From Acidobacteriota bacterium (lineage in GTDB: Bacteria; Acidobacteriota; Terriglobia; Terriglobales; Acidobacteriaceae): 64,000 nucleotides of DNA. The position numbers were made by a program, and so were the translations under genes. Position 1 is the first letter of the stretch; each line of letters begins with the position of its first letter. The DNA lies in assembly GCA_025359885.1 (NCBI GenBank), contig JANYDG010000095.1:1-64000 (forward strand), in the 5' to 3' direction. Below the pieces are notes generated by a model. It ran no database searches. It worked only from the letters and a program-made list of their open reading frames with translations, and was not told the DNA's origin. Shown one piece after another: positions 15,469 through 26,456 of this stretch.

Positions 15469-17052
15469 ATGAAATCAAAATGGCTTTCTCAAACGCTTTT
15501 TGTTGCTGTGGTGATGGGTCTCCTGCTCCCCAAGGTGGGTCTCGCGATTCCCGCGTTTTCGCGCCAGTACGGCACTTCCTGCACCACCTGCCACCTGGAC
15601 TTCCCAAAGCTCAATGATTTCGGCAAGGCGTTCAAGGACGCTGGTTTCAAGTTTCCCAAGGATGATGAGTCTTTTCTGAAGACTCCACCGATCCTTCTCG
15701 GCGCTCCCGCCCAGGCCGAGCTCTTTCCGCATACCGTCTATCCCGGCACTATTCCTGGCTTGCCGCCGATCGGGCTGCGCTACAACCAGTTCTACCAGCA
15801 GGTTAGTTCCAACCGGAATAACTTCAACCAGGTTTTACCTGCGGGAACGATTGGTACATTTATCCCCAAGTCAGACTTTCAACCCGGCCTCTTCAGCATC
15901 TTCACGGCCGGCAATTTCGGCACGGGCATCTCTTTCTGGGTTGACGACGATATCAGCGTGGCTGGCGCGAACGCCAACGGGGCATTGGGTGACGCTTATC
16001 TGAAATTCCACGACGTCAGCCGATTCCTCAAAATGCCCACTGACTCGGTAAATTTGCGCTTTGGCCAGTTTGAACTCGACCTCCCCTTCAGCCAGGCACG
16101 CTCCTGGAATCTCAGTGGATGGGACATCCTCGGAGAGGCCAATATCGGTGTGCAGAACGGAATCGGGCGACCTGAGAGCGTTAACAACGGCACCGGACTG
16201 GACGCAGCGGCAGACGGCATCGAAATCAGCGGCGGCCACTCTTACCAGGGCTATCACTACTCGCTCGCTGTGATGAATCAGAACACCAGCGGAGCCGCAG
16301 CCGCACCGCCCAATGTAGGTCCACAAAACGGCGTGGCCTTCAGCTCTGACTCCAACTTCAAAGACCTCTACGGCCGATTCGTCTATCGCTTCAATCTCGA
16401 AAAGAATCCCGAAAGTCGCGACGGAGTTCAGGCCGCTGGAGCGATGGGACCGCGTGATCACACCTTCTTCGCGCTCGGCACATTCGGCTTCTACGGACGC
16501 AGCGTTCAAACAGTGAGCGGGGTGCTCGCCGATGGTCAAACGCCAACCGTGCTGACAGCACGTGAACCCTTCTACCGCATCGGCGGCGACGTCAACTTTA
16601 ACTATCGTACGTTCAACCTCTTCGGTGTCTACGTGGCGGCCCACGACCATAACCTTGTGCCAGTCTCCACCGTCGAAAGTGGCGCCATCACCGGCTTCAA
16701 GCCAGAGAGCGCAGTCACCTTCAGCGGCGGATTTGCGGAAGCGGACTACCTTGCCCTGCCCTGGGCCATGAGTATTGTGCGCTGGGATCAGGTGAAGTCA
16801 ACCGCGGATCGGGTCAACTTCCTGATGTACGATCCAACCGCCCCGCCAGCGTCTTCCTTCTTCTCACCCTACCGGGCGACGCGTAACCGCTACACCCTCG
16901 GCGAGCAGTTCCTCATTCACGCCAACATCAAGGCATCGGTCGAATACCAGATTCCGCCGCAGCAGATTGTTTATGACCCGGCAACGGGCATCGCGATCAG
17001 CAAGCCATTCCGCACAAACGTGTTGGTTACTGGGCTCGAATTCGTCTACTAA
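15469..17052 (+). CDS. Fused monoheme cytochrome c-porin, Cyc2-like outer-membrane protein
   Basis: A 527-residue protein with a signal peptide (about residues 1-26), a mature start AFSRQYGTSCTTCH with a single heme site (C38, C41, H42), the conserved follow-on FPKLNDFGKAFKDAGF, and then about 450 residues of alternating, aromatic-rich beta-strand sequence ending in ...TGLEFVY, an aromatic C-terminus typical of outer-membrane barrels. Cyc2, known as an outer-membrane Fe(II) oxidase, has this layout: one heme at the N-terminus plugged into a porin. I infer an outer-membrane electron conduit; iron as substrate is not shown. A GAGG site lies 7 bases before the ATG. It leads a cluster of redox genes running in the same direction. 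Confidence 0.8.
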   Translation: MKSKWLSQTLFVAVVMGLLLPKVGLAIPAFSRQYGTSCTTCHLDFPKLNDFGKAFKDAGFKFPKDDESFLKTPPILLGAPAQAELFPHTVYPGTIPGLPPIGLRYNQFYQQVSSNRNNFNQVLPAGTIGTFIPKSDFQPGLFSIFTAGNFGTGISFWVDDDISVAGANANGALGDAYLKFHDVSRFLKMPTDSVNLRFGQFELDLPFSQARSWNLSGWDILGEANIGVQNGIGRPESVNNGTGLDAAADGIEISGGHSYQGYHYSLAVMNQNTSGAAAAPPNVGPQNGVAFSSDSNFKDLYGRFVYRFNLEKNPESRDGVQAAGAMGPRDHTFFALGTFGFYGRSVQTVSGVLADGQTPTVLTAREPFYRIGGDVNFNYRTFNLFGVYVAAHDHNLVPVSTVESGAITGFKPESAVTFSGGFAEADYLALPWAMSIVRWDQVKSTADRVNFLMYDPTAPPASSFFSPYRATRNRYTLGEQFLIHANIKASVEYQIPPQQIVYDPATGIAISKPFRTNVLVTGLEFVY

Positions 17053-17092
17053 CACTCTCTAACGGCATCAACTTTCCCACTCAGGAGTTCAC

Positions 17093-17674
17093 ATGAAACA
17101 CATCAATTTTGTAGCACTCATCGCGATCGCAGCATGCAGCACGGCAGCTTTTGCAGGCACAATTCACGGTAAGGTTTCAGGCGTCAGCGGCGTATCCGTC
17201 GTCTATGTTGAAGCAATTGCCGGCAAGACCTTCCCAGCCCCAACCCAACATCTGGTCATCGACCAGAAGGGGCTCATGTTCACGCCGCACATTGTGGCCA
17301 TCGAGCAGGGAACCACCGTCGAATTTCTCAACAGTGACAGCGTCGCGCACAACGTCTTCTGGATCTCGATCAGTGGTAACAAGAAGCTTGGGCACAATCT
17401 CGGCACCTGGCCCCAGGGGCAGAAGCAGAGCTTCAAGTTTGACAACCCCGGCTATGTGCCACTGCTCTGCAACGTTCACCCGGAAATGGCCGCTTATATC
17501 ATCGTTTCGCCCACGCCTTACTTTGCAGAAACTGACAAGTCAGGTGTCTTCAAAATCGACAATGTTCCTGATGGTGCCTACACCGTAACCGCATGGCACG
17601 AGGGTGCAAAGCCCAAATCCAATCCTGTCAAGATCGCAGGCGACACTGCTGCAGACTTCACCCTTTCGAAGTAA
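17093..17674 (+). CDS. Periplasmic cupredoxin with C-terminal carboxypeptidase-regulatory-like domain
   Basis: A 193-residue protein with a signal peptide (cleavage likely after STAAFA). The middle is a plastocyanin/azurin-like fold with type 1 copper ligands visible as His in SVAHNVFW and Cys, His and Met in LLCNVHPEM. The last 40 residues (KSGVFKIDNVPDGAYTVTAW) resemble a carboxypeptidase-regulatory-like beta-sandwich. It would act as a soluble one-electron carrier in the periplasm. Lying 40 bp after the cytochrome-porin, it is a natural partner between the outer membrane and the cytochrome bc-like complex. A hairpin follows it. Confidence 0.88.
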   Translation: MKHINFVALIAIAACSTAAFAGTIHGKVSGVSGVSVVYVEAIAGKTFPAPTQHLVIDQKGLMFTPHIVAIEQGTTVEFLNSDSVAHNVFWISISGNKKLGHNLGTWPQGQKQSFKFDNPGYVPLLCNVHPEMAAYIIVSPTPYFAETDKSGVFKIDNVPDGAYTVTAWHEGAKPKSNPVKIAGDTAADFTLSK

Positions 17675-17711
17675 CTTGCATCCCCGGCAATTCGAAAGCC
17701 TGGAACCACCA

Positions 17712-17731
17712 CGGGCGTGGAAACACGCCCG
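17712..17731 (+). terminator. GAAA-capped hairpin, possible attenuator within the redox cluster
   Basis: CGGGCGTG-GAAA-CACGCCCG followed by a pyrimidine-rich run (CTTTCTTCACTC), located between the cupredoxin stop and the oxidoreductase start. It lacks a clean T-run. It may reduce read-through or stabilise the upstream mRNA, so that the two OM/periplasmic genes are made in larger amounts than the membrane complex. This role is inferred. Confidence 0.45.
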
Positions 17732-17767
17732 CTTTCTTCACTCTTCTCCATGTCTGGAAGGTCATCC

Positions 17768-19750
17768 ATGCAACAACGCTTCATCAACAAAAAGGTTGAT
17801 CAGGAATGGTTGAATACCAACTTTCCCTGCATGATGGCCTGTCCCGCGCACACCAATGCCGGCCGCTATGTGGAGTTGGTCGCCGAGGGTAACTTCGAAG
17901 AGGCGTATCGCTACGCCCGCGAACCCAACCCGCTCGCCAGCATCTGCGGTCGGGTCTGCGCTCATCCCTGCGAAACAGCCTGCCGCCGCGGTGAGATTGA
18001 CAAGCCCATCGCCATCCGCGCACTCAAGCGATTCCTCACCGAGCAACATGGCCCCGAGTCACGCAATCCCATCGACGTAAACGCTGGACGCTTGCAACCC
18101 AGACTCAACCTCAGCGTGGCCATTGTTGGAGCGGGACCAGTGGGACTCTCAGCCGCTCACGATCTTGCCCTCATGGGTTATTCAGTGACGGTCTTCGAGG
18201 CTTCTCAGGTAGCAGGCGGCATGCTCTATCTCGGCCTCCCGGAGTATCGTCTGCCCCGCGATGTGGTCGAAGCGCAGGTACGAGAAATCCTCGCCACCGG
18301 GGATATTACCCTCAAGTTGAATCATGCCGCAGGTCGCGACTTCACCATCGCTGATCTGCGCAATCAATTCAACGCGGTACTCATCGCTGTGGGTGCGCAT
18401 CGCAGCCGCGACCTCACCATTCCGGGCGTCAACCTTGATGGAGTCTATAAGGGAATCGACTTTCTGCTCAATGTAAATCTGGGCTATCGCTTCACTATCG
18501 GCAAAAAGGTGCTTGTGATCGGCGGCGGTAACGTAGCTATGGACGTGGCCCGTTCCGCAGCCCGCGAAGTACTCAAGCAGCACGCTGCGGGAGTCGAGAA
18601 TTTTGAGCCTTCAAAGGACAGCGTCGATACTCTGGCGGCGCACGAAATGATGGATATATCGCTGTCAGCACTGCGACTCGGTGCCCAGGAAGTTCACCTC
18701 GTCTGCCTTGAAAATCGCGCCGAAATGCCCGCTGCCATGGAAGAGATTGAAGAGGCTGAAGAAGAGGGAATCATCATCCATGCCGGCTTCGGTCCCAAGC
18801 AGATTATCGGCAAAGATGGGCACGCCATTGGGCTTGAAGTACTCAAGACCAAGTCAGTTTTCGATGAGAACCGGCGCTTCAATCCAACCTTCTTTGAAAA
18901 CAGCGAAACGCTGCTCGAATGTGACACGATCATCATGGCCATCGGCCAGGCGGCGAATCTCTCCTTCCTCAGCCCTGATGACGGAGTTGGAGTTTCACCG
19001 CGCGGATTGGTCGCCGTAAATCCACAGTCACTGATGACATCGGCACCCGGAGTATTTGCCGGTGGCGACTGCGTCTTTGGCCCCCGTCTCATCATTGACA
19101 GTGTGGCTGACGGTAAGCGCGCCGCAGTTGGAATCGACGAATATCTGCGTGGTACCAAACACCCCGACCCGGTTATCGAAGTCGAAGTGATGGAGCGCTA
19201 TCACATGCCCCTCAACTTGCTCGATAAAACGCGCCCAGTTATCCCGATGCAGCCGCTCAAGCGCCGGACTGGTGTTACCGAGGTCGAGATTGGTTTTGAC
19301 GCTGAATCTGCAATGGCTGAGGCGCAGCGGTGCCTGCACTGCTGGGTGAATACCGTCTTTGAAGGTAATTCCGAGGACGCTACAGAGTGTATTCTCTGCG
19401 GCGGCTGCGTCGATGTTTGCCCGGAAAGTTGCCTCGAACTTGTAGCTCTTGAACGTATTTCATTTGACGAAACGACAACCACGCAACTTGGCAATATCCG
19501 TGATCTTCTCAGTGTCGAATTGAACGACATCCAGGCAGAAGAGTTAGGTATCATTTCCGGCTCTGCAATGCTCAAGGATGAGTCCCGGTGCATTCGTTGC
19601 GGACTCTGCGCAGCCCGATGCCCCGCAGGCACCATCACCATGGAGTCATACAACATTTTTTCAGTCGATCCCACCGGCTTAATTTCCCTGGAATCCATCG
19701 ACGGTCCCCTGCGAGCGAAGCCGCTCGTAGCTGCCGCGACTACGAGGTAA
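17768..19750 (+). CDS. FAD/[4Fe-4S] NAD(P)-type oxidoreductase (GltD/DPD-like) with C-terminal ferredoxin domain
   Basis: A 660-residue protein. Residues 1-100 form an N-terminal Fe-S domain of the dihydropyrimidine-dehydrogenase type (Cys21, 25, 60, 64, 68, 72; CGRVCAHPCETACRR). An FAD Rossmann site follows (VAIVGAGPVGLSAAHDLALM), then a second nucleotide site (VLVIGGGNVAMDVARSA) and GVFAGGDCVFGP. The C-terminus carries further clusters with CLHCW, CILCGGCVDVCP and CIRCGLCAARCP. The start is the ATG at 17768 because GGAAGG precedes it by 6 bases. Related proteins move electrons between NAD(P)H, ferredoxin and other carriers. Being 3 bp from the Rieske gene, it is probably a cytoplasmic subunit of the quinone-linked complex rather than a glutamate synthase; no GltB is present. 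Confidence 0.88.
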   Translation: MQQRFINKKVDQEWLNTNFPCMMACPAHTNAGRYVELVAEGNFEEAYRYAREPNPLASICGRVCAHPCETACRRGEIDKPIAIRALKRFLTEQHGPESRNPIDVNAGRLQPRLNLSVAIVGAGPVGLSAAHDLALMGYSVTVFEASQVAGGMLYLGLPEYRLPRDVVEAQVREILATGDITLKLNHAAGRDFTIADLRNQFNAVLIAVGAHRSRDLTIPGVNLDGVYKGIDFLLNVNLGYRFTIGKKVLVIGGGNVAMDVARSAAREVLKQHAAGVENFEPSKDSVDTLAAHEMMDISLSALRLGAQEVHLVCLENRAEMPAAMEEIEEAEEEGIIIHAGFGPKQIIGKDGHAIGLEVLKTKSVFDENRRFNPTFFENSETLLECDTIIMAIGQAANLSFLSPDDGVGVSPRGLVAVNPQSLMTSAPGVFAGGDCVFGPRLIIDSVADGKRAAVGIDEYLRGTKHPDPVIEVEVMERYHMPLNLLDKTRPVIPMQPLKRRTGVTEVEIGFDAESAMAEAQRCLHCWVNTVFEGNSEDATECILCGGCVDVCPESCLELVALERISFDETTTTQLGNIRDLLSVELNDIQAEELGIISGSAMLKDESRCIRCGLCAARCPAGTITMESYNIFSVDPTGLISLESIDGPLRAKPLVAAATTR

Positions 19751-19753
19751 TGC

Positions 19754-20245
19754 ATGCACGAGTTGAAACAATCACAAACAACAGCCCTGGGCGAAGAATT
19801 TGATCGCCGAGCCTTCTTCACCAAGGTTGGCCTCGGGTCACTGGGCATTGCCGCAGCAGGCACGGCTGTCTTCGCATATAACTACCTCTCGCCGAATGTT
19901 CTTTACGAGCCTTCGTCGATCGTCAATGCGGGCAAGCCGGAAAGTTTCCCTGTCGGACAGGTCAGCCTCGACGTGAACTCCGGGATCTACACCGTGCGCG
20001 CCGAAGAAGGCTTCTTTGCCCTCACCGCAGTTTGCACTCATCTGGGCTGCCTGACTGCGTGGAATCAGGACCTCGGCATCATCACCTGCCCCTGTCATGG
20101 CAGCAAGTTCAAGCGTACCGGCGAGAAAATCGAAGGCCCTGCGCCGAAGCCCCTGCCCTGGCTCAAAGTATGGCTCAGCGATGAGGGTGAACTCATGATC
20201 GACCGCTCCATCAACATTCCGTCGTTGCAGTACTTGAGGGTGTGA
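19754..20245 (+). CDS. Rieske [2Fe-2S] protein of a cytochrome bc-type complex
   Basis: A 163-residue protein with a Tat-like N-terminus ([10 protein letters not shown]) and one membrane anchor ([19 protein letters not shown]). The two Rieske boxes CTHLGC and CPCHGS (two Cys and two His bind the cluster) are spaced about 15 residues apart. It is the high-potential electron acceptor for quinol oxidation and passes electrons to a periplasmic carrier. It lies between the FAD/Fe-S oxidoreductase and cytochrome b, tightly spaced with both. No cytochrome c1 or f of ordinary type is present; the multiheme protein downstream probably takes that place. Confidence 0.93.
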
Positions 20246-20247
20246 GC

Positions 20248-21057
20248 ATGACCACGAAGACAACCAGGACTGACCAACTCATCGAGCAAGTCCGCGACAG
20301 CCGCGTGTGGCGCTCCGTCTTTCGCAGCGGCAGCGGCAACAGCACATTGCATCGCGCTCTCGCCATTCAGCAGAACGTCTTTCTGCATCTGTTCTCTGCC
20401 AAGGTGCGTAAGCGCATGGTCAGCTTCAGCGCGACCTGGTATCTCGGCACTTTGACGCTGGGTACTTTCCTTATTCTTGTCGTCACCGGCATTCTGCTCA
20501 TGCTGTACTACCATCCTTCAGTGCCGCAGGCCTACGCCGATATGAAGGATTTGCAATTCGTGGTTTCCTCAGGGCTCTTCCTGAGAAACCTGCATCGCTG
20601 GTCGGCGCAACTGATGGTCTTCCTCGTCTTCGCGCACATGTTCAAGGTCTTCTATCGCGGCGCCTACCGCACGCCCCGCGAATTCAACTGGGTCATCGGC
20701 ATTGTGCTGCTGCTGATTACTCTCTTGCTTAGTTACACCGGCTATCTGCTTCCTTGGGATCAGTTAGCATTCTGGGCTATTACCGTCGGTTCCAATATTT
20801 CATCAGCCGTTCCCATTGTCGGCAGCAAGATTCACTTTCTGCTCCTCGGCGGCAATCAAGTGAACGCAAACGCTTTGCTTCGCTTCTATGTCTTGCACTG
20901 CGTCGTCCTGCCGCTCACCGCGATTGTCTTCATCGCCATCCACTTCTGGCGGATTCGCAAGGATGGCGGCCTCTATGTGCAGCAGTCAGAGCCCAGGCCG
21001 GCATCGCCCGTCGTATCAGCGCCCGTTGCACCGCTCCCGGCAAAGGAGGCAAAATGA
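20248..21057 (+). CDS. Cytochrome b (b6-type N-terminal half)
   Basis: A 269-residue membrane protein with four main helices. The two heme-binding His pairs are visible as LHRW/AHMF with 13 residues between and LHCV/IHFW with 14 residues between; the latter spacing is typical of b6-type rather than mitochondrial-type cytochrome b. It has a quinone-site-like stretch [20 protein letters not shown]. The ATG at 20248 fits the GAGGG site better than the GTG at 20242. The Pro/Ala-rich C-terminal tail of about 25 residues is unusual. The stop overlaps the next start (ATGA). Confidence 0.93.
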
Positions 21058-21758
21058 GCACACCGAAAGACTTTATCGCTGGCGTTGACTCAGACCAGCG
21101 GCGCTCACCGACACGGGTCGTCTTTGTCACGCGGCGCACCTCTGCACAGGTCAAGGTAGCCCGTGAAGATGAGATGCAAACCTATCCAGGCGTACTCTTT
21201 CGCGCAGCTCTTGCGATCGAGTTACTGGCCATCCTGCTGGTCGTTGTCTCGCTGTTTTTCAACGCGCCGCTTGAGGGCATCGCAGACCCCACGCACACAC
21301 CCAACCCCGCCAAGGCACCTTGGTACTTCCTGGGTCTGCAAGAGCTGCTGCACTACTTTCCACCGGTTGTTGCAGGCGTTCTCGTTCCCACCATGCTCAT
21401 CGTCTCACTCATCGTCATTCCTTATTTCAACATCAACATCGAGGCGCAGGGCCTCTTTCTCAAAGATCGAACCAGGCGTCTCAATATCTTCTACAGTGCA
21501 ACCGCTGGGTTGATCCTGTTCCTCGTGTTCTTTCACGTCTATGTTGCCATTGCCCCGTCTATCATCGTCGCCATTGCAATGCTGATTGGTGCCAATAGCA
21601 CGCTGCAGTCACCTTCGCGGTGGCGTCGGTATCTTGCCTCGAAGCCATTCGCTTACTGGATCATGACGTGGTTTCTCTTTGAACTGATTGTGCTCACGGC
21701 AGTGGGTACATGGTTTCGCGGCCCCGGCTGGTCCTGGGTATTGCCCTGGAGGAGTTAA
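21054..21758 (+). CDS. Cytochrome b C-terminal half / subunit IV-like protein
   Basis: A 234-residue membrane protein. It carries the subunit-IV signature [21 protein letters not shown] (b6f subunit IV has a similar PDP...PEWY region completing the Qo site), after one N-terminal helix and before several more (about five in total), so it has extra helices compared with plant PetD. A near-perfect AAGGAGG site lies just before the ATG. A soluble N-terminal segment of about 45 residues ([20 protein letters not shown]) probably faces the cytoplasm and could contact the FAD/Fe-S subunit; this is inference. Confidence 0.88.
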
Positions 21759-23849
21759 GTGCAATTCATTCGAAAGTATCTATCCTCTGCGTGGCATACG
21801 CTTTTCGGCGATCCGGTGCGCGCCTTTGGCATCGTCAGCCTGGTGCTGCTGCTGGCGCTTGCTGTCACACCCACCAAGGAACATTTCAGCGAGTGGCATG
21901 GCTATCAGCGTAACTACCTTTCGCTGATTCGTGATCGCGGCGATGCGGTCTCCATGCGCCGTCGCTTTGAGCCCGGCATTCACCAGATATGGATGCCGGC
22001 ACTCGGCGTGGTTGACCGATGCACCACCTGCCATGTGGGCCTGAATGAAGCGAGCCTGGCCGACGAGCATCAGCAGCCATTTCGCAAGCACCCGGCTATT
22101 CCGCATCCCGTTGAAGGCTTCGGTTGCGTCATTTGTCATGGCGGCCAGGGCGCTGCCACGACGGTCTCTGAAGCCCACTTCAGCGAGCGTGATGGCGAAG
22201 CCCCGATCCTGCCCACTCGCTACATTGAGGCAGGCTGCGGCCAGTGCCATCAAAATGAGATGGCCGGCACGCCGCAACTCAATCTCGGCCGCACCATGCT
22301 CACCCGTTACGGATGCGTTCGCTGCCACTCCATTACCCGGCCTGATGGCTCCAAGCTGATGCCAACGGATCATCCACCATCGCTCATTCATATCGCCGAC
22401 AAGACTTCTCGAGAATGGATCTACAGCTGGCTCAAAGACCCGCAGGCCTACGCTGCCACCACCACCATGCCTAACTACAAGCTCAGTGACCAGGATGCAA
22501 GTGACATTTCCGCCTACCTGGTCAGTTCCAGCAAACCGCAGCCGGGCGATACTGCGGCAGTTGACGTCAAGACCGCATCAGCCGGTAAAGCAGGCAATCC
22601 GGCAGCGAAGCCAGCAGCGAATCCAGCAGATGGTGCCAGCCTCTACGGGCAGTCCTATTGCTCCTCGTGTCACGCAGTTCAGAATGCGGCGGGCAATGTC
22701 GTCGGCGGCAACGTGGGCCCCGAGTTGACCCGCATCGGTAACAAGGTCAAGCCAGAATGGCTCAACGCTTGGCTCAATAATCCACGCATCTACGACGTCA
22801 CAACGCCGATGCCGCACTACCGCTTTACCCCGCAACAGATTGCCACTCTATCGGACTATCTGCACAGCAAGTCCGATGCCGATTACGGCGCAAACGTGCA
22901 GCTTGCCGCGGCTACCCCGCAGCAGATTGCCCGCGGTCGCAGGCTCATTATTGACGGCGGATGCGCCGCCTGCCACGAAATCAACGGAGTTCAGACACCG
23001 CAGAACTTCGCGCCTGATCTCAGCAACATCGGCAGCAAGCCGCTCGCGCAGATTGCCTTCCTGCCCGGCATGCAGCACACAGTTTCAACCTACATCGTGA
23101 GCAAGATTCGCCAGCCGCGGGCATTCGGTGGTGCCGTGAAGATGCCACAATTCGCGCTCTCCAACGCGCAAACGGATGCTCTAACCACCGCACTGCTCGC
23201 GCAGACGGCTCGCAGCCGCACCATTCCAGACACGCTGCGTGTGGCCGCCACGGCAGACACCAACTACCAGCCCGCAGGCCACGCAGGCAAGCTGATGACC
23301 GAGCTCGCCTGCTTCAGTTGCCACCGTATCAACGGACGCGGCGGCGACATGGCCCCCGACCTTACCTACGAGGGCAGCAGTGTGCAGCGCCAGTGGCTGA
23401 CCGATTTCCTCAAAAATCCCAACACGCTGCGGCCGTCGCTCATCCGGCGCATGCCACGATTCAACCTCTCTGACAGCGACAACAAGGAACTCACGGATTA
23501 CATGCTCGCCGTCTACCAAACCCCCACCGTCGATCCCGACACAGCACCATCAGCCACCAATCCGGCCCAGGTTGTCGAACAGGGTCGGCAGCTCTTCTAT
23601 TCCAAATTTGCTTGCCAGTCCTGCCACATCGTCGATACCAAGACCGACAAGGGGTACATCGGACCGACTTTAACCCACGTAGGCTCGCGATTGACGCCAG
23701 CATGGACCTACGCATGGCTCAAAGATCCCCAGGCACTGCGCCCGGGCACAACCGAACCAAACCAGAAGATGAGTGACGACGATGCGCGCGCAGTGACGGC
23801 CTTTCTCATGTCGCTCAAAGGCACCGCTGGAATAGGAGCAAAGCAATGA
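21759..23849 (+). CDS. Eight-heme membrane-anchored c-type cytochrome
   Basis: A 696-residue protein starting at GTG, directly after the previous stop and preceded by GGAGGAG. One N-terminal anchor (FGIVSLVLLLALAVTP) is followed by eight CXXCH sites at about residues 88, 123, 160, 186, 301, 402, 518 and 619. The first three are close together like a small multiheme head. The last five each start a cytochrome c module, four of which contain an MP motif (for example TTTMPNYKLS) that can give the axial Met; in the last module the equivalent reads TTEPNQKMS, so its ligand may differ. It likely takes the cytochrome c1/f role and passes electrons to or from periplasmic carriers. Confidence 0.9.
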   Translation: MQFIRKYLSSAWHTLFGDPVRAFGIVSLVLLLALAVTPTKEHFSEWHGYQRNYLSLIRDRGDAVSMRRRFEPGIHQIWMPALGVVDRCTTCHVGLNEASLADEHQQPFRKHPAIPHPVEGFGCVICHGGQGAATTVSEAHFSERDGEAPILPTRYIEAGCGQCHQNEMAGTPQLNLGRTMLTRYGCVRCHSITRPDGSKLMPTDHPPSLIHIADKTSREWIYSWLKDPQAYAATTTMPNYKLSDQDASDISAYLVSSSKPQPGDTAAVDVKTASAGKAGNPAAKPAANPADGASLYGQSYCSSCHAVQNAAGNVVGGNVGPELTRIGNKVKPEWLNAWLNNPRIYDVTTPMPHYRFTPQQIATLSDYLHSKSDADYGANVQLAAATPQQIARGRRLIIDGGCAACHEINGVQTPQNFAPDLSNIGSKPLAQIAFLPGMQHTVSTYIVSKIRQPRAFGGAVKMPQFALSNAQTDALTTALLAQTARSRTIPDTLRVAATADTNYQPAGHAGKLMTELACFSCHRINGRGGDMAPDLTYEGSSVQRQWLTDFLKNPNTLRPSLIRRMPRFNLSDSDNKELTDYMLAVYQTPTVDPDTAPSATNPAQVVEQGRQLFYSKFACQSCHIVDTKTDKGYIGPTLTHVGSRLTPAWTYAWLKDPQALRPGTTEPNQKMSDDDARAVTAFLMSLKGTAGIGAKQ

Positions 23850-24598
23850 TGAAACGAGTCACTCCTCGAACCCTGCGATCATCGGCTTGCCTGGCGCTCC
23901 TTGCCGTCGTGGTGCTTGCAGGATGCAAACATCCCGGGCAATCCACCACAGCGTTAAAACCCACCGCCACGGGAGCCGCCATCGTCGAGACCAGCGGCGG
24001 CCACCAGCTCGGCTCCACCGGCACGGAGCTCAAAGACCCGCTGATTGTTCAGGTCAACGACGAGCAGGGCACCGCCGTTGCTGGCGCACTGGTCGAGTTT
24101 CAAAGCCCCGCAGGCGTCACCTTTGAGCCCGCAACCATGCTCACTGATGCGAGCGGACAAGCCACCACCGCCGTCACCCTGGGCTCGATAGCCGGGCGTT
24201 ACCAACTCGCCGCCTCCACCGCAGGCAAGTCAAAGCCGGTAGCTCTCGACATCGTCGAAACAGCTCTCGGCTATCAGCAGCGAGTGGGCTCCATTCTGGC
24301 CGACAAGTACTGCACCCGCTGCCACGATCCCGAGTCGTCTGCCGAGCGCGTCTCCAACTACGACAATCTCGAAACCAAGCCTCATCCCTTCACCGATAGC
24401 AACACTCTCAACAAGATGACGGATGCGGATCTGACCGCCATCATTCAATACGGGGGCCCCGCGCTGCATCGTTCGGCACTCATGCCGCCCTACGGAAAAA
24501 CACTCACCCTGGCAGAGGTTCGTGCGCTTATAGCCTATACTCGTGCTTTAGCTGATCCCCCGTATCAGCCAGCAGGGACGGTCTATGCGCATAAGTAG
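23846..24598 (+). CDS. Lipoprotein with bacterial Ig-like domain and C-terminal heme c
   Basis: A 250-residue protein with a signal peptide ending in a lipobox (VVLAGC), an Ig-like/Big_1 region (residues about 55-135: IVQVNDEQGTAVAGALVEF), and a cytochrome c domain with CTRCH at residue 156 and a C-terminal MPPYGKTLT segment that could give the axial Met. It is lipid-anchored, probably in the periplasmic face of a membrane. The start overlaps the octaheme stop (ATGA), so it is translated with it. The Ig-like part may hold it to the complex or to the outer-membrane conduit (inference). Confidence 0.88.
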   Translation: MMKRVTPRTLRSSACLALLAVVVLAGCKHPGQSTTALKPTATGAAIVETSGGHQLGSTGTELKDPLIVQVNDEQGTAVAGALVEFQSPAGVTFEPATMLTDASGQATTAVTLGSIAGRYQLAASTAGKSKPVALDIVETALGYQQRVGSILADKYCTRCHDPESSAERVSNYDNLETKPHPFTDSNTLNKMTDADLTAIIQYGGPALHRSALMPPYGKTLTLAEVRALIAYTRALADPPYQPAGTVYAHK

Positions 24599-25952
24599 CA
24601 CGGCTCTCGCAGCTATCCTCAGCATCATTGCAATATCAGGTGCGATTCCAGCTGCCGTCGCCCAGGCCGTGTCACCTGTCGAGATTCAGGAGCCCGACAT
24701 CCGCGCGCTTCAGCAGCACTCCATCAACGATCTCAACGCGGTCGGTCAAACCATTGCCGCGAATCACTTCAACTTCCCGTTCTATTTCAGCCGCAAGCTG
24801 GACATCGACGAGAAATTGCAGAAGCGCACAGACCAGCACTCGATTCGGTTCGAGCGCTACAACGGCGCAACTGTCCTTGCCATCTCCGGCAACTACTACG
24901 GAGCCTACGCTTCTGAGAAATTCTCGAGCGATCAGCGTGCCAAAGAGACCTTCATGTCGGTCGTGCTGCCGATCCTCAAGGTGGCGGTCCCTGCCTTTCA
25001 GAACAGTTCTGCGGTGCAGGGCTACGCTATCGAAGTCTCGCACCATGTCATCGGCAAAACCATGGGCATGCCCATTGAGCGCCCTGAAAACCTGATGGTC
25101 TACCTACCTCAGAGCGCCGCCCGCAAGCTTGTTGCAGCGCAGGGCAATCTTGCACAGCAAGTGGCCCTGGTTGATGCCGAGGTATTCCTGAACGCCAAGC
25201 AGATGACCCTGTGGCTCACAGAAGATGAGCAGCCAGGCCAAAGTGAAGCTCCTCCTGCCATGCTCGAAAGCTCCAGTACTGGTGCCCTGCAGCCCCCAGC
25301 GCAGGTTGCCGAGACAGCCTCGGCCCGCCCACCCTACACCCCGGCTGCAAACCCGCCACTGTCAGATTCACTACTGGCCGCCCAACCCGCAGCCGTGGCA
25401 CCCCCGCAGCCCGTCGCACCCCCGCCACCGGCTCTGCGCGATACCTCGCCACAGGCCCTGGCCGCATTGCAGACTTCCATTCAGGGCATCAGCAATCACA
25501 TGCTCAAGGAGCTCGAACCCGCAGCTCACTTTGTTGCCTATGCGCCTCCCGCATTCATCCCATTCCGCCATCAGGCTTATCTTGAGCTGTCGGTGACCAC
25601 CGCTCTTGCTGAGCCGCAAGGCGTCTCCCGCTACAAGGCCGCCGCCCTCGCGTTTGATGAACACATCTCGCCACTCATTCGTCGCGTCCTCGGCTACTTT
25701 CCCGGCGATCAGAATTTCGACGGCATCAGCTTCAGCACCACAGTCCGCGGACGCACCAAGCCCGGCGTCCCGGTAGCTGCGCCTTTGTCCGTCGAGTTCT
25801 TCTTTCCCATGGAAGTCCTTCGCAGCTACGAAGCCTACGATTGCACCGGGCAGCAGTTGATCGACGCCGGTGTCGTTCTCATCAACGGCGAGCGCGCCCG
25901 GCTTGATCTTGAACCAGCAGAAGGCAGCGCTCCATCCGCAGCCGGTCGTTAG
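24585..25952 (+). CDS. Secreted protein of unknown function with duplicated domain
   Basis: A 455-residue protein with a signal peptide (cleavage near AVAQA). Two halves, about residues 35-190 and 290-445, look like distant copies of the same domain: both have an LQ...I..hM/L opening, a long helix before VLPILKVAVPAF or ISPLIRRVLGYFP, then a G-containing strand and an LPxxxxxKL/FPMEVLRSY ending. A Pro/Ala-rich linker (PAAVAPPQPVAPPPPALR) joins them. No heme or metal motif is seen. It overlaps the preceding gene by 14 bp and closes the operon, so it is probably an accessory or scaffold protein of the redox complex. No family recognised. Confidence 0.75.
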   Translation: MRISSTALAAILSIIAISGAIPAAVAQAVSPVEIQEPDIRALQQHSINDLNAVGQTIAANHFNFPFYFSRKLDIDEKLQKRTDQHSIRFERYNGATVLAISGNYYGAYASEKFSSDQRAKETFMSVVLPILKVAVPAFQNSSAVQGYAIEVSHHVIGKTMGMPIERPENLMVYLPQSAARKLVAAQGNLAQQVALVDAEVFLNAKQMTLWLTEDEQPGQSEAPPAMLESSSTGALQPPAQVAETASARPPYTPAANPPLSDSLLAAQPAAVAPPQPVAPPPPALRDTSPQALAALQTSIQGISNHMLKELEPAAHFVAYAPPAFIPFRHQAYLELSVTTALAEPQGVSRYKAAALAFDEHISPLIRRVLGYFPGDQNFDGISFSTTVRGRTKPGVPVAAPLSVEFFFPMEVLRSYEAYDCTGQQLIDAGVVLINGERARLDLEPAEGSAPSAAGR

Positions 25953-26079: not shown

Positions 26080-26262
26080 CTACTTGTTGACTACCTGCTT
26101 GATTTCCCCAATCTTCTTCTCGATGGTTCCCTGGATGCGTTCCGCAGTTCCCTCATCCTCAAGACTGGGGTTGTTGGTCATCTGACCGATCTTTTCCTTG
26201 ATGCTGCCTTTTACTTCGTGAACCTTGCCTTCAACCTGATCGTGCGTGCTCGTAGTCGTCAT
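26080..26262 (-). CDS. CsbD-family stress protein
   Basis: A 60-residue hydrophilic protein, MTTTSTHDQVEGKVHEVKGS..., with two repeated KG.IKEKIG/QGTIEKKIGE-like segments as in the CsbD family of general-stress proteins, whose molecular role is unknown. The ATG at 26260-26262 was preferred to an upstream start because it gives the usual CsbD start and a GGAGAAAC site precedes it. The terminator at 25972-26011 lies about 70 bases beyond its stop. Confidence 0.88.
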   Translation of the reverse strand: MTTTSTHDQVEGKVHEVKGSIKEKIGQMTNNPSLEDEGTAERIQGTIEKKIGEIKQVVNK

Positions 26263-26456
26263 GCTGTTTCTCCTTGTGAATTGTAGGCAATGTAAGCCAC
26301 TGCCGAACGCCGTCCTGCTCGGAACTGATCGAAATTCCGGATGCATCTGCGACGCAACTCTAAAGTATTGCTCTGCTGCACCCTTGACTGTCTCCAATTG
26401 GGCAGGGAGGCAGGTTTTCGCCATGCACGCCTCGCGAGGGCTGTCCCCGCGCCATG

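Follow-up and report, generated by a model that had tools for sequence, protein, structure and literature searches.

We describe a cluster of nine genes in a 64,000-nucleotide stretch of DNA from an Acidobacteriota bacterium (GCA_025359885.1, JANYDG010000095.1, positions 1-64,000 of the + strand), a stretch that we call, as a whole, the window. The host genome (G000) has 4.2 Mb in 125 contigs and is 94.8% complete. The cluster (15469-25952, + strand) combines the gene for a porin fused to a cytochrome with genes for a copper protein, for a Rieske/cytochrome b6 set that includes a flavin adenine dinucleotide (FAD) and iron-sulfur (Fe-S) protein, and for two more heme proteins, and it is a candidate for an electron path between the cell surface and the inner membrane. 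A preliminary description of this DNA had listed nine same-strand genes, and all of them are present: the nine open reading frames (ORFs) are confirmed with their coordinates, tightly packed on the + strand.

The nine genes

The first gene (15469-17052) encodes a Cyc2-like fused monoheme cytochrome-porin of 527 amino acids (aa), with a signal peptide, a AIPAFSRQYGTSCTTCHLDFPKL heme domain and a predicted 16-strand barrel. It is followed by a type 1 copper protein, or cupredoxin (17093-17674, 193 aa), with ligands H86, C126, H129 and M132 and a C-terminal carboxypeptidase-regulatory-like domain, and by an FAD/Fe-S oxidoreductase of nicotinamide adenine dinucleotide (phosphate), NAD(P), of the GltD/Nfn kind with C-terminal 4Fe-4S ferredoxin motifs (17717-19750 as the longest ORF). 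The Rieske [2Fe-2S] protein (19754-20245, 163 aa), the b6-type cytochrome b (20242-21057, 271 aa, heme ligands H118/H132/H219/H234) and a subunit IV-like protein (21054-21758, 234 aa, four hydrophobic segments in a simple scan) come next; for subunit IV, the start at 21054 corrects the longest-ORF start at 20754. The last three genes encode an octaheme cytochrome c with an N-terminal hydrophobic anchor (21759-23849, 696 aa), a monoheme lipoprotein with the lipobox LAGC and with Big_1 and cytochrome c domains (23846-24598, 250 aa), and a secreted protein with a duplicated domain that we refer to as gene 9 (24585-25952, 455 aa). There is one CXXCH motif in the porin (at aa 38), eight in the octaheme protein, one in the heme lipoprotein and none in the other six genes. 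The Pfam matches at E <=0.1 are Copper-bind, Pyr_redox_2/Fer4_20/Fer4, Rieske, Cytochrome_B, Cytochrom_B_C, Cytochrom_C and CBB3, and together with NCBIfam they back the names given earlier to genes 2-8. The porin and gene 9 have no match in Pfam (E <=0.1) or NCBIfam.

Seven genes, from the FAD gene through gene 9, overlap or abut with gaps of at most 3 nt, as had been described. By ORF coordinates the successive junctions are a gap of 3 nt, two overlaps of 4 nt each, an abutment, and overlaps of 4 and 14 nt. Porin and cupredoxin genes are separated by 40 nt, and cupredoxin and FAD genes by 42 nt if the FAD protein starts where its longest ORF does. In one relative (L021) the FAD protein, 94% identical to that of the window, starts at the equivalent of Met18, and the true start in the window is most likely this Met18, at 17768, which would give a protein of 660 aa and widen the spacing to 93 nt. 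Between the cupredoxin gene and this likely start there is a GC-rich hairpin (17712-17731, + strand), a putative processing site. Terminator-like hairpins are not enriched in the region (7, versus a shuffle mean of 9.0). Adjoining the cluster on the - strand is a small ORF (26080-26424) that, from its resemblance, we presume to be CsbD-like. The tight packing had also been taken to indicate a single complex of all nine proteins, and that claim we do not retain: the porin and the cupredoxin belong in other compartments, and gene 9 and the FAD gene are absent from some of the clusters.

Conservation of the cluster

Searching a collection of 84,980 species genomes gives 127 relatives, the best 80 of which are the named loci analyzed here. 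Gene order is counted in the 56 named loci whose downstream sequence reaches 8.5 kb or more; the 24 shorter ones are left out. All eight downstream genes are found in order in 52 of the 56. One locus scored as a failure, L071, continues with another cupredoxin and another Rieske/b6 set and lacks gene 9; its first set keeps the order from porin to octaheme cytochrome. The second Rieske-cytochrome b set (L071:19669-21470) lies directly after the cluster, and its b6 is without the N-terminal His discussed below. Amongst the 24 left-out loci, 18 fit as a prefix of the same order (six of these without any downstream gene visible), and the remaining six have the cupredoxin and gene 9 without Rieske/b6. 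Acidobacteriota taxon names are carried by 79 of the 80 named loci, and bog, palsa or fen appears in 27 of the 80 isolate names. L107, on a 7 kb contig, is labelled Ignavibacteria.

The same linkage can be counted from either side across the phylum. Close orthologs of the porin (E <1e-150) occur in 13 of 396 Acidobacteriota genomes, and 11 of them lie within 12 kb of b6; of the other two, one is near a contig end (G259) and one has a form without Rieske/b6 (G026). From the b6 side, we take the closest 36 among the b6 matches listed for these 396 genomes (E <=2.3e-109, one row per porin gene). In 27 of the 36 places b6 lies near a Cyc2-like porin, which is related to that of the window in 21 cases and belongs to a second lineage of porins in six (G022, G169, G328, G333, G087, G113). 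Seven places either lie at the end of a contig or give an ambiguous picture (G259, G411, G155, G363, G366, G294, G189), and two (G086, G292) have no porin near b6 despite room for one. The 52 remaining listed b6 rows have no contig in common with any unlinked porin place. By both counts, the linkage between the porin and the Rieske/cytochrome b genes that the preliminary description rested on is conserved in related genomes.

The cytochrome-porin

The single CXXCH of the porin (aa 38-42) comes just after the signal peptide. The alignment used for folding includes the window protein and 45 of 72 usable porins; over these 46 rows both heme Cys and the His are invariant, and many barrel residues are kept too. 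Structure prediction with AlphaFold2 gives 16 long strands, with a mean predicted local distance difference test (pLDDT) of 64.7 and a predicted template modeling score (pTM) of 0.65. A Foldseek search with this model places OprP (2o4v) at rank 1 and OprO (4rjx/4rjw) at ranks 8/12. OprP and OprO are the templates named for Cyc2 by Keffer 2021 (PMC8406198). The model agrees with the barrel that had been expected, at the level of a prediction in which ordinary trimeric porins are nearly equal to OprP and no heme plug is seen. A search of the PDB with the porin profile has no matches, nor does a search of plasmids with the window porin.

In Keffer 2021 (PMC8406198), the Cyc2 family is described by the motif AXPXFAR[Q/K][T/Y] followed by PXL after the heme, with a screen for a length of at least 365 aa. 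Porins of the window's kind have the PXL four residues past the heme in 72 of 73 cases, and all 73 have at least 365 aa. In place of a phylogeny, we compared them with a profile of the second lineage made from eight porins, four of them from clusters (L159-L162) and four plasmid-borne (Acidithiobacillus, Caballeronia, Methylocystis, Ideonella). By hhalign the two profiles align with a probability of 98.0 as wholes, matching over the heme domain, and the heme domain alone has a probability of 98.7 versus a best value of 1.9 among 20 column-shuffled controls. When L169 and L173 are included, the strict Cyc2 motif is present in five of ten second-lineage porins. We name the window porin "Cyc2-like", as a protein whose heme domain is homologous to that of further monoheme porins that carry the Cyc2 motif. 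The Cyc2-like heme/porin start given in the preliminary description stands as far as the CXXCH, the PXL, the length and the homologous heme domain go, and the motif itself is one residue off.

Two side observations concern the plasmids. On an Acidithiobacillus ferrooxidans plasmid (L163:7926-9293), a Cyc2-like porin with the FAAQT variant is annotated as 'hypothetical protein' and is followed by a c-type cytochrome gene. On the Caballeronia plasmid (L164), the annotated start of a 'cytochrome C' gene excludes the heme motif, and the strict Cyc2 motif is encoded in the DNA immediately upstream of 7061.

The Rieske/b6/FAD genes and the other secreted proteins

Against 177,635 distinct PDB sequences, the Rieske protein has 9rk4 (1.3e-25) and 9rk3 (6.9e-19) as its top two matches, with the third at 4.5e-16. 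These two are the Kuenenia Rieske proteins Kuste4569 and Kustd1480, respectively (PMC12954380). According to the same report, the Kuenenia complexes include b6, subunit IV, a hexa-/octaheme cytochrome and an NAD(P) oxidoreductase in which Fe-S clusters form a chain, and they are proposed to make NAD(P)H via quinol bifurcation; no high-potential reaction is proposed there for Kustd1480-1485. In the cluster and its relatives, the Rieske ligands are intact in 60 of 60 rows and the b6 heme ligands in 59 of 59. The Cys of heme cN (the b6 Cys35 position, placed by alignment) is Tyr or Phe in all 59 rows. An N-terminal His of b6, H49, a candidate for the residue that in the anammox-type complexes serves a dimer-interface heme b, is invariant in the 59 rows and absent from the other cytochrome b of the host genome. 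As a marker of an exit to the FAD subunit this His is ruled out, since it is also present in three clusters that have no FAD gene (L148-L150). The best PDB matches of the FAD protein include flavoproteins named Nfn. Nfn enzymes bifurcate electrons. The quinone-site motif of subunit IV is APWY, which we take to suit menaquinone. G000 carries another Rieske/cytochrome b and COX1-family genes elsewhere, so the complex of the cluster is an extra one. The link to the quinone and NAD(P)H pools that had been put forward is suggested by homology to the anammox NAD(P)-linked Rieske/b6 complexes, and it stands at that strength.

Other cofactor sites are conserved as well. The four copper ligands of the cupredoxin are intact in 73 of 73 aligned rows, and the octaheme cytochrome has all eight CXXCH in 55 of 55. 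For gene 9, the duplicated domain noted earlier is real: its two halves align by hhalign with a probability of 96.9 (E 1.8e-10), versus at most 10.7 in 20 column-shuffled controls. Folded from an alignment of the window protein with 36 of 54 usable proteins, gene 9 gives a model with a mean pLDDT of 83.6 that has no match in the PDB at E <=0.001. This may be a fold not seen before, in a gene that goes with those of the porin and the cupredoxin. Gene 9 occurs in eight of 40 surveyed cluster loci, always beside close orthologs of the window porin.

Modular variants of the cluster

Related clusters differ by the loss or exchange of modules. The FAD gene is missing in three of 19 surveyed loci that hold b6 (L148-L150). 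L151 has a small monoheme cytochrome c where the cupredoxin would be, as expected of a soluble carrier. A porin of the other lineage lies beside b6 in six of the 27 places counted above, so that one porin replaces another without a change in the kind of partner. A short form is found in six relatives (L031-L036, five of them in the window's genus), and consists of porin, cupredoxin, a six-heme cytochrome, the heme lipoprotein and gene 9; these six clusters have no Rieske/b6/FAD match. In several of them a membrane-protein-like ORF of about 210 aa comes after the short cluster.

Another arrangement is that of L038 (6739-13143) and L040 (4416-11569), in which a diheme cytochrome c and then a cupredoxin homolog come after a Cyc2-motif porin, the motif being of the strict form in L038. 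L038 continues with COX2, COX1 and COX3, confirmed by Pfam in L038 only and not in L040. The cupredoxin homolog of L038 has no Pfam copper-domain match and keeps the copper ligands. This cyc2-cyc1-cup-cox order is that of the rus operon (PMC10654088).

Two further observations concern the surroundings of these loci. In L148-L152 and L156, the porin is immediately preceded by an ORF whose start resembles, by eye, that of a two-component response regulator; none is seen adjoining the window cluster. L171 and L172 have Rieske/b6/FAD sets without a nearby porin or cupredoxin match.

A proposed electron wire

We propose that the cluster encodes an electron wire between the outer and the inner membrane, which runs from the cytochrome-porin via the cupredoxin and the octaheme cytochrome to an anammox-type Rieske/b6-NAD(P) complex and may be used in either direction. 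Judged from sequence, we hold this proposal to be somewhat better than evenly probable. At the cell surface, one electron at a time would pass between a porin of the Cyc2 kind and a dissolved metal, of which iron is the most likely. The cupredoxin would ferry electrons over the periplasm to the anchored octaheme cytochrome, which would belong to the complex formed by Rieske, b6 and subunit IV. This complex would exchange electrons with menaquinone, and with NAD(P) via the cytoplasmic FAD/Fe-S subunit. The sequences show the parts with their intact cofactor ligands, their homologies and their conserved linkage; from these we infer the path, the use of iron, and the menaquinone and NAD(P) link. 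Among the genomic evidence, the best indication of electron transfer from the porin to the complex is that the porin lineage and the carrier are swapped while the rest stays. A bifurcating variant, in which the electrons of menaquinol split, one going through the cytochrome-porin to an extracellular metal and the other to NAD(P)H, or the reverse, is a tentative addition and taken by itself rather doubtful.

Several results weigh against the proposed wire. The porin reads AIPAFSRQY, with Ser for Ala, one residue off the Cyc2 motif, and the strict motif is present in only 13 of the 73 porins of its kind. The barrels of the two porin lineages have no sequence homology (hhalign probability 0.9), and the porins used for comparison are Cyc2-like as defined by the motif, none of them a proven Cyc2. 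In the model, the heme domain (residues 23-98) has pLDDT <50, so the model gives no resolved heme plug, and the TM-scores are 0.44 to 0.59 over the OprP and OprO matches and 0.47 to 0.59 for the best match, with the general solute porins BpsOmp38 and OmpF close behind. The porin and cupredoxin occur without Rieske/b6 in 9 of the 80 named loci. While 15 of 30 mid-range porin relatives (E 5e-42 to 6e-21) lie near b6, just two of 59 weak ones do, and the linkage thus belongs to one large group of porins and not to every porin. Finally, no RuBisCO large subunit (PF00016) is found in the G000 contigs, which makes it doubtful that electrons need to be driven in reverse to NAD(P)H.

Given the wire, inward flow, that is, Fe(II) oxidation, has a slight lead over outward flow. 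The rus-like porin-diheme-cupredoxin-COX locus L038 argues for it by suggesting uptake, and so do the biochemically tested Cyc2 proteins named by Keffer, which are Fe(II) oxidases (PMC8406198). If the wire ran outward only, menaquinol would be oxidised at Rieske/b6, with one electron leaving via the octaheme cytochrome, the cupredoxin and the porin to extracellular Fe(III)/Mn(IV) and the other going to NAD(P)+; this share of the proposal is possible, and clearly less probable than the proposal in its entirety. It is favored by the scarcity of PF00016, which besides being absent from G000 is found in four of 34 cluster-bearing genomes, one a partial match (RuBisCO-like proteins match this family too, and the forms are untyped), so that most cluster genomes are unlikely to be Calvin-cycle autotrophs. 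According to PMC8790237, Fe(III) is reduced by Acidicapsa and Acidobacterium strains and by isolates close to Acidobacteriaceae, and a role of Cyc2 as ferric reductase has been put forward for Acidithiobacillus. For the nearest complexes, those of anammox bacteria, the proposal is that quinol serves to form NAD(P)H (PMC12954380). However, two features of the anammox model fit badly here, with heme cN absent and the N-terminal His not specific to FAD-bearing clusters.

Other explanations give up the wire altogether. The porin could be a channel for small solutes with the heme as gate or sensor, while Rieske/b6 serves an ordinary periplasmic chain to oxidases, away from the surface. Solute porins are indeed the best structural matches, the heme domain is unresolved in the model, and all 34 of the 34 cluster genomes have a match to the COX1 family, to which nitric oxide reductases belong as well. 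Yet G000 already has other Rieske/cytochrome b and COX1-family genes, and if no electrons were transferred, a swap for another Cyc2-like porin would be difficult to account for, which makes this reading unlikely. We consider it very improbable that the cluster is a system for oxyanions (selenite/tellurite) of the Ext type, like extHIJKLMNOPQS of Geobacter, where a porin is likewise paired with Rieske/cytochrome b (PMC5877670). The best NCBIfam matches of b6 and subunit IV are ExtP (259 bits) and ExtQ (49 bits), and the octaheme cytochrome matches ExtS (68 bits), but these scores are below the curated cut-offs of 290, 150 and 100, respectively; ExtJ and ExtM reach 15 and 18 bits, and there is no rhodanese among the listed matches. 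ExtI has no heme motif according to its authors (PMC5877670), and the window porin has one. With sub-cut-off scores and a heme-bearing porin, membership in the Ext family is rejected. That the genes are chance neighbours in one genome is scarcely credible, with nothing found in its favor, and we reject it: the order is kept far above chance, in 52 of 56 named loci, and related clusters are found across the phylum.

Relation to known systems

The cytochrome-porin resembles the Cyc2 proteins (Acidithiobacillus Cyc2, Mariprofundus Cyc2 and Leptospirillum Cyt572) in having one N-terminal CXXCH fused to what is predicted to be a 16-strand OprP/OprO-like barrel, in a heme domain homologous to those of Cyc2-motif porins, and in the PXL past the heme; a periplasmic copper protein within the cluster is shared with the rus operon. 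It differs in the Ser for Ala of the motif, in a barrel without homology to the Cyc2-like proteins compared (amongst which there is no proven Cyc2), and in being clustered with Rieske/b6/NAD(P) genes instead of COX. The iron genes of Leptospirillum are reported to be unclustered (PMC10654088). The rus (cyc2-cyc1-cup-coxBACD) and pet operons of Acidithiobacillus also bring a cytochrome-porin, a copper protein and a bc complex into one iron chain, whereas the window unites porin, cupredoxin, bc-type complex and NAD(P) subunit without COX. We reject membership in the rus operon because none of the nine genes has a COX1, COX2 or COX3 match; a rus-like order is found instead in the paralogous Acidobacteriota locus L038.

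The Kuenenia sets Kuste4569-4574 and Kustd1480-1485 provide the nearest Rieske proteins, and share b6 and subunit IV, a multiheme cytochrome and an FAD/Fe-S NAD(P) oxidoreductase with the window. In contrast to them, the window has no heme cN Cys, adds a cytochrome-porin and a cupredoxin, and has no octaheme enzyme like hydroxylamine oxidoreductase among its nine genes. The Geobacter ext cluster is alike in placing a porin and Rieske/b6/subunit IV together, with the sub-cut-off ExtP, ExtQ and ExtS matches, and unlike in its heme-less ExtI porin and in the rhodanese, which is not among the listed window matches.

Cyc2 genes in metagenome-assembled genomes of Acidobacteriota have already been published (PMC10367259), and homologs of Cyt572 in Acidobacteria have been mentioned (PMC10654088). 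In the open-access literature that our searches covered, we found no description of a cluster that joins a Cyc2-type porin to an NAD(P)-linked Rieske/b6 complex. Within that literature, the view that this is not a described named pathway holds, and both halves are known separately: the combination is built from kinds already known.

Significance

Peat and other soils are rich in Acidobacteriota. If the proposed wire is true, the Acidobacteriota of such soils share a means of trading electrons with soil iron. The bifurcating variant, if true, would give a kind of high-potential partner to a type of complex that is without a known one in Kustd1480-1485, and a respiratory module with an exchangeable porin would be common to soil Acidobacteriota. 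For NAD(P)-linked Rieske/b6 complexes, which have no settled role in anammox bacteria, the cluster offers a partner that can be tested. It is also a warning that Cyc2-type marker genes may not signify lithoautotrophic iron oxidation.

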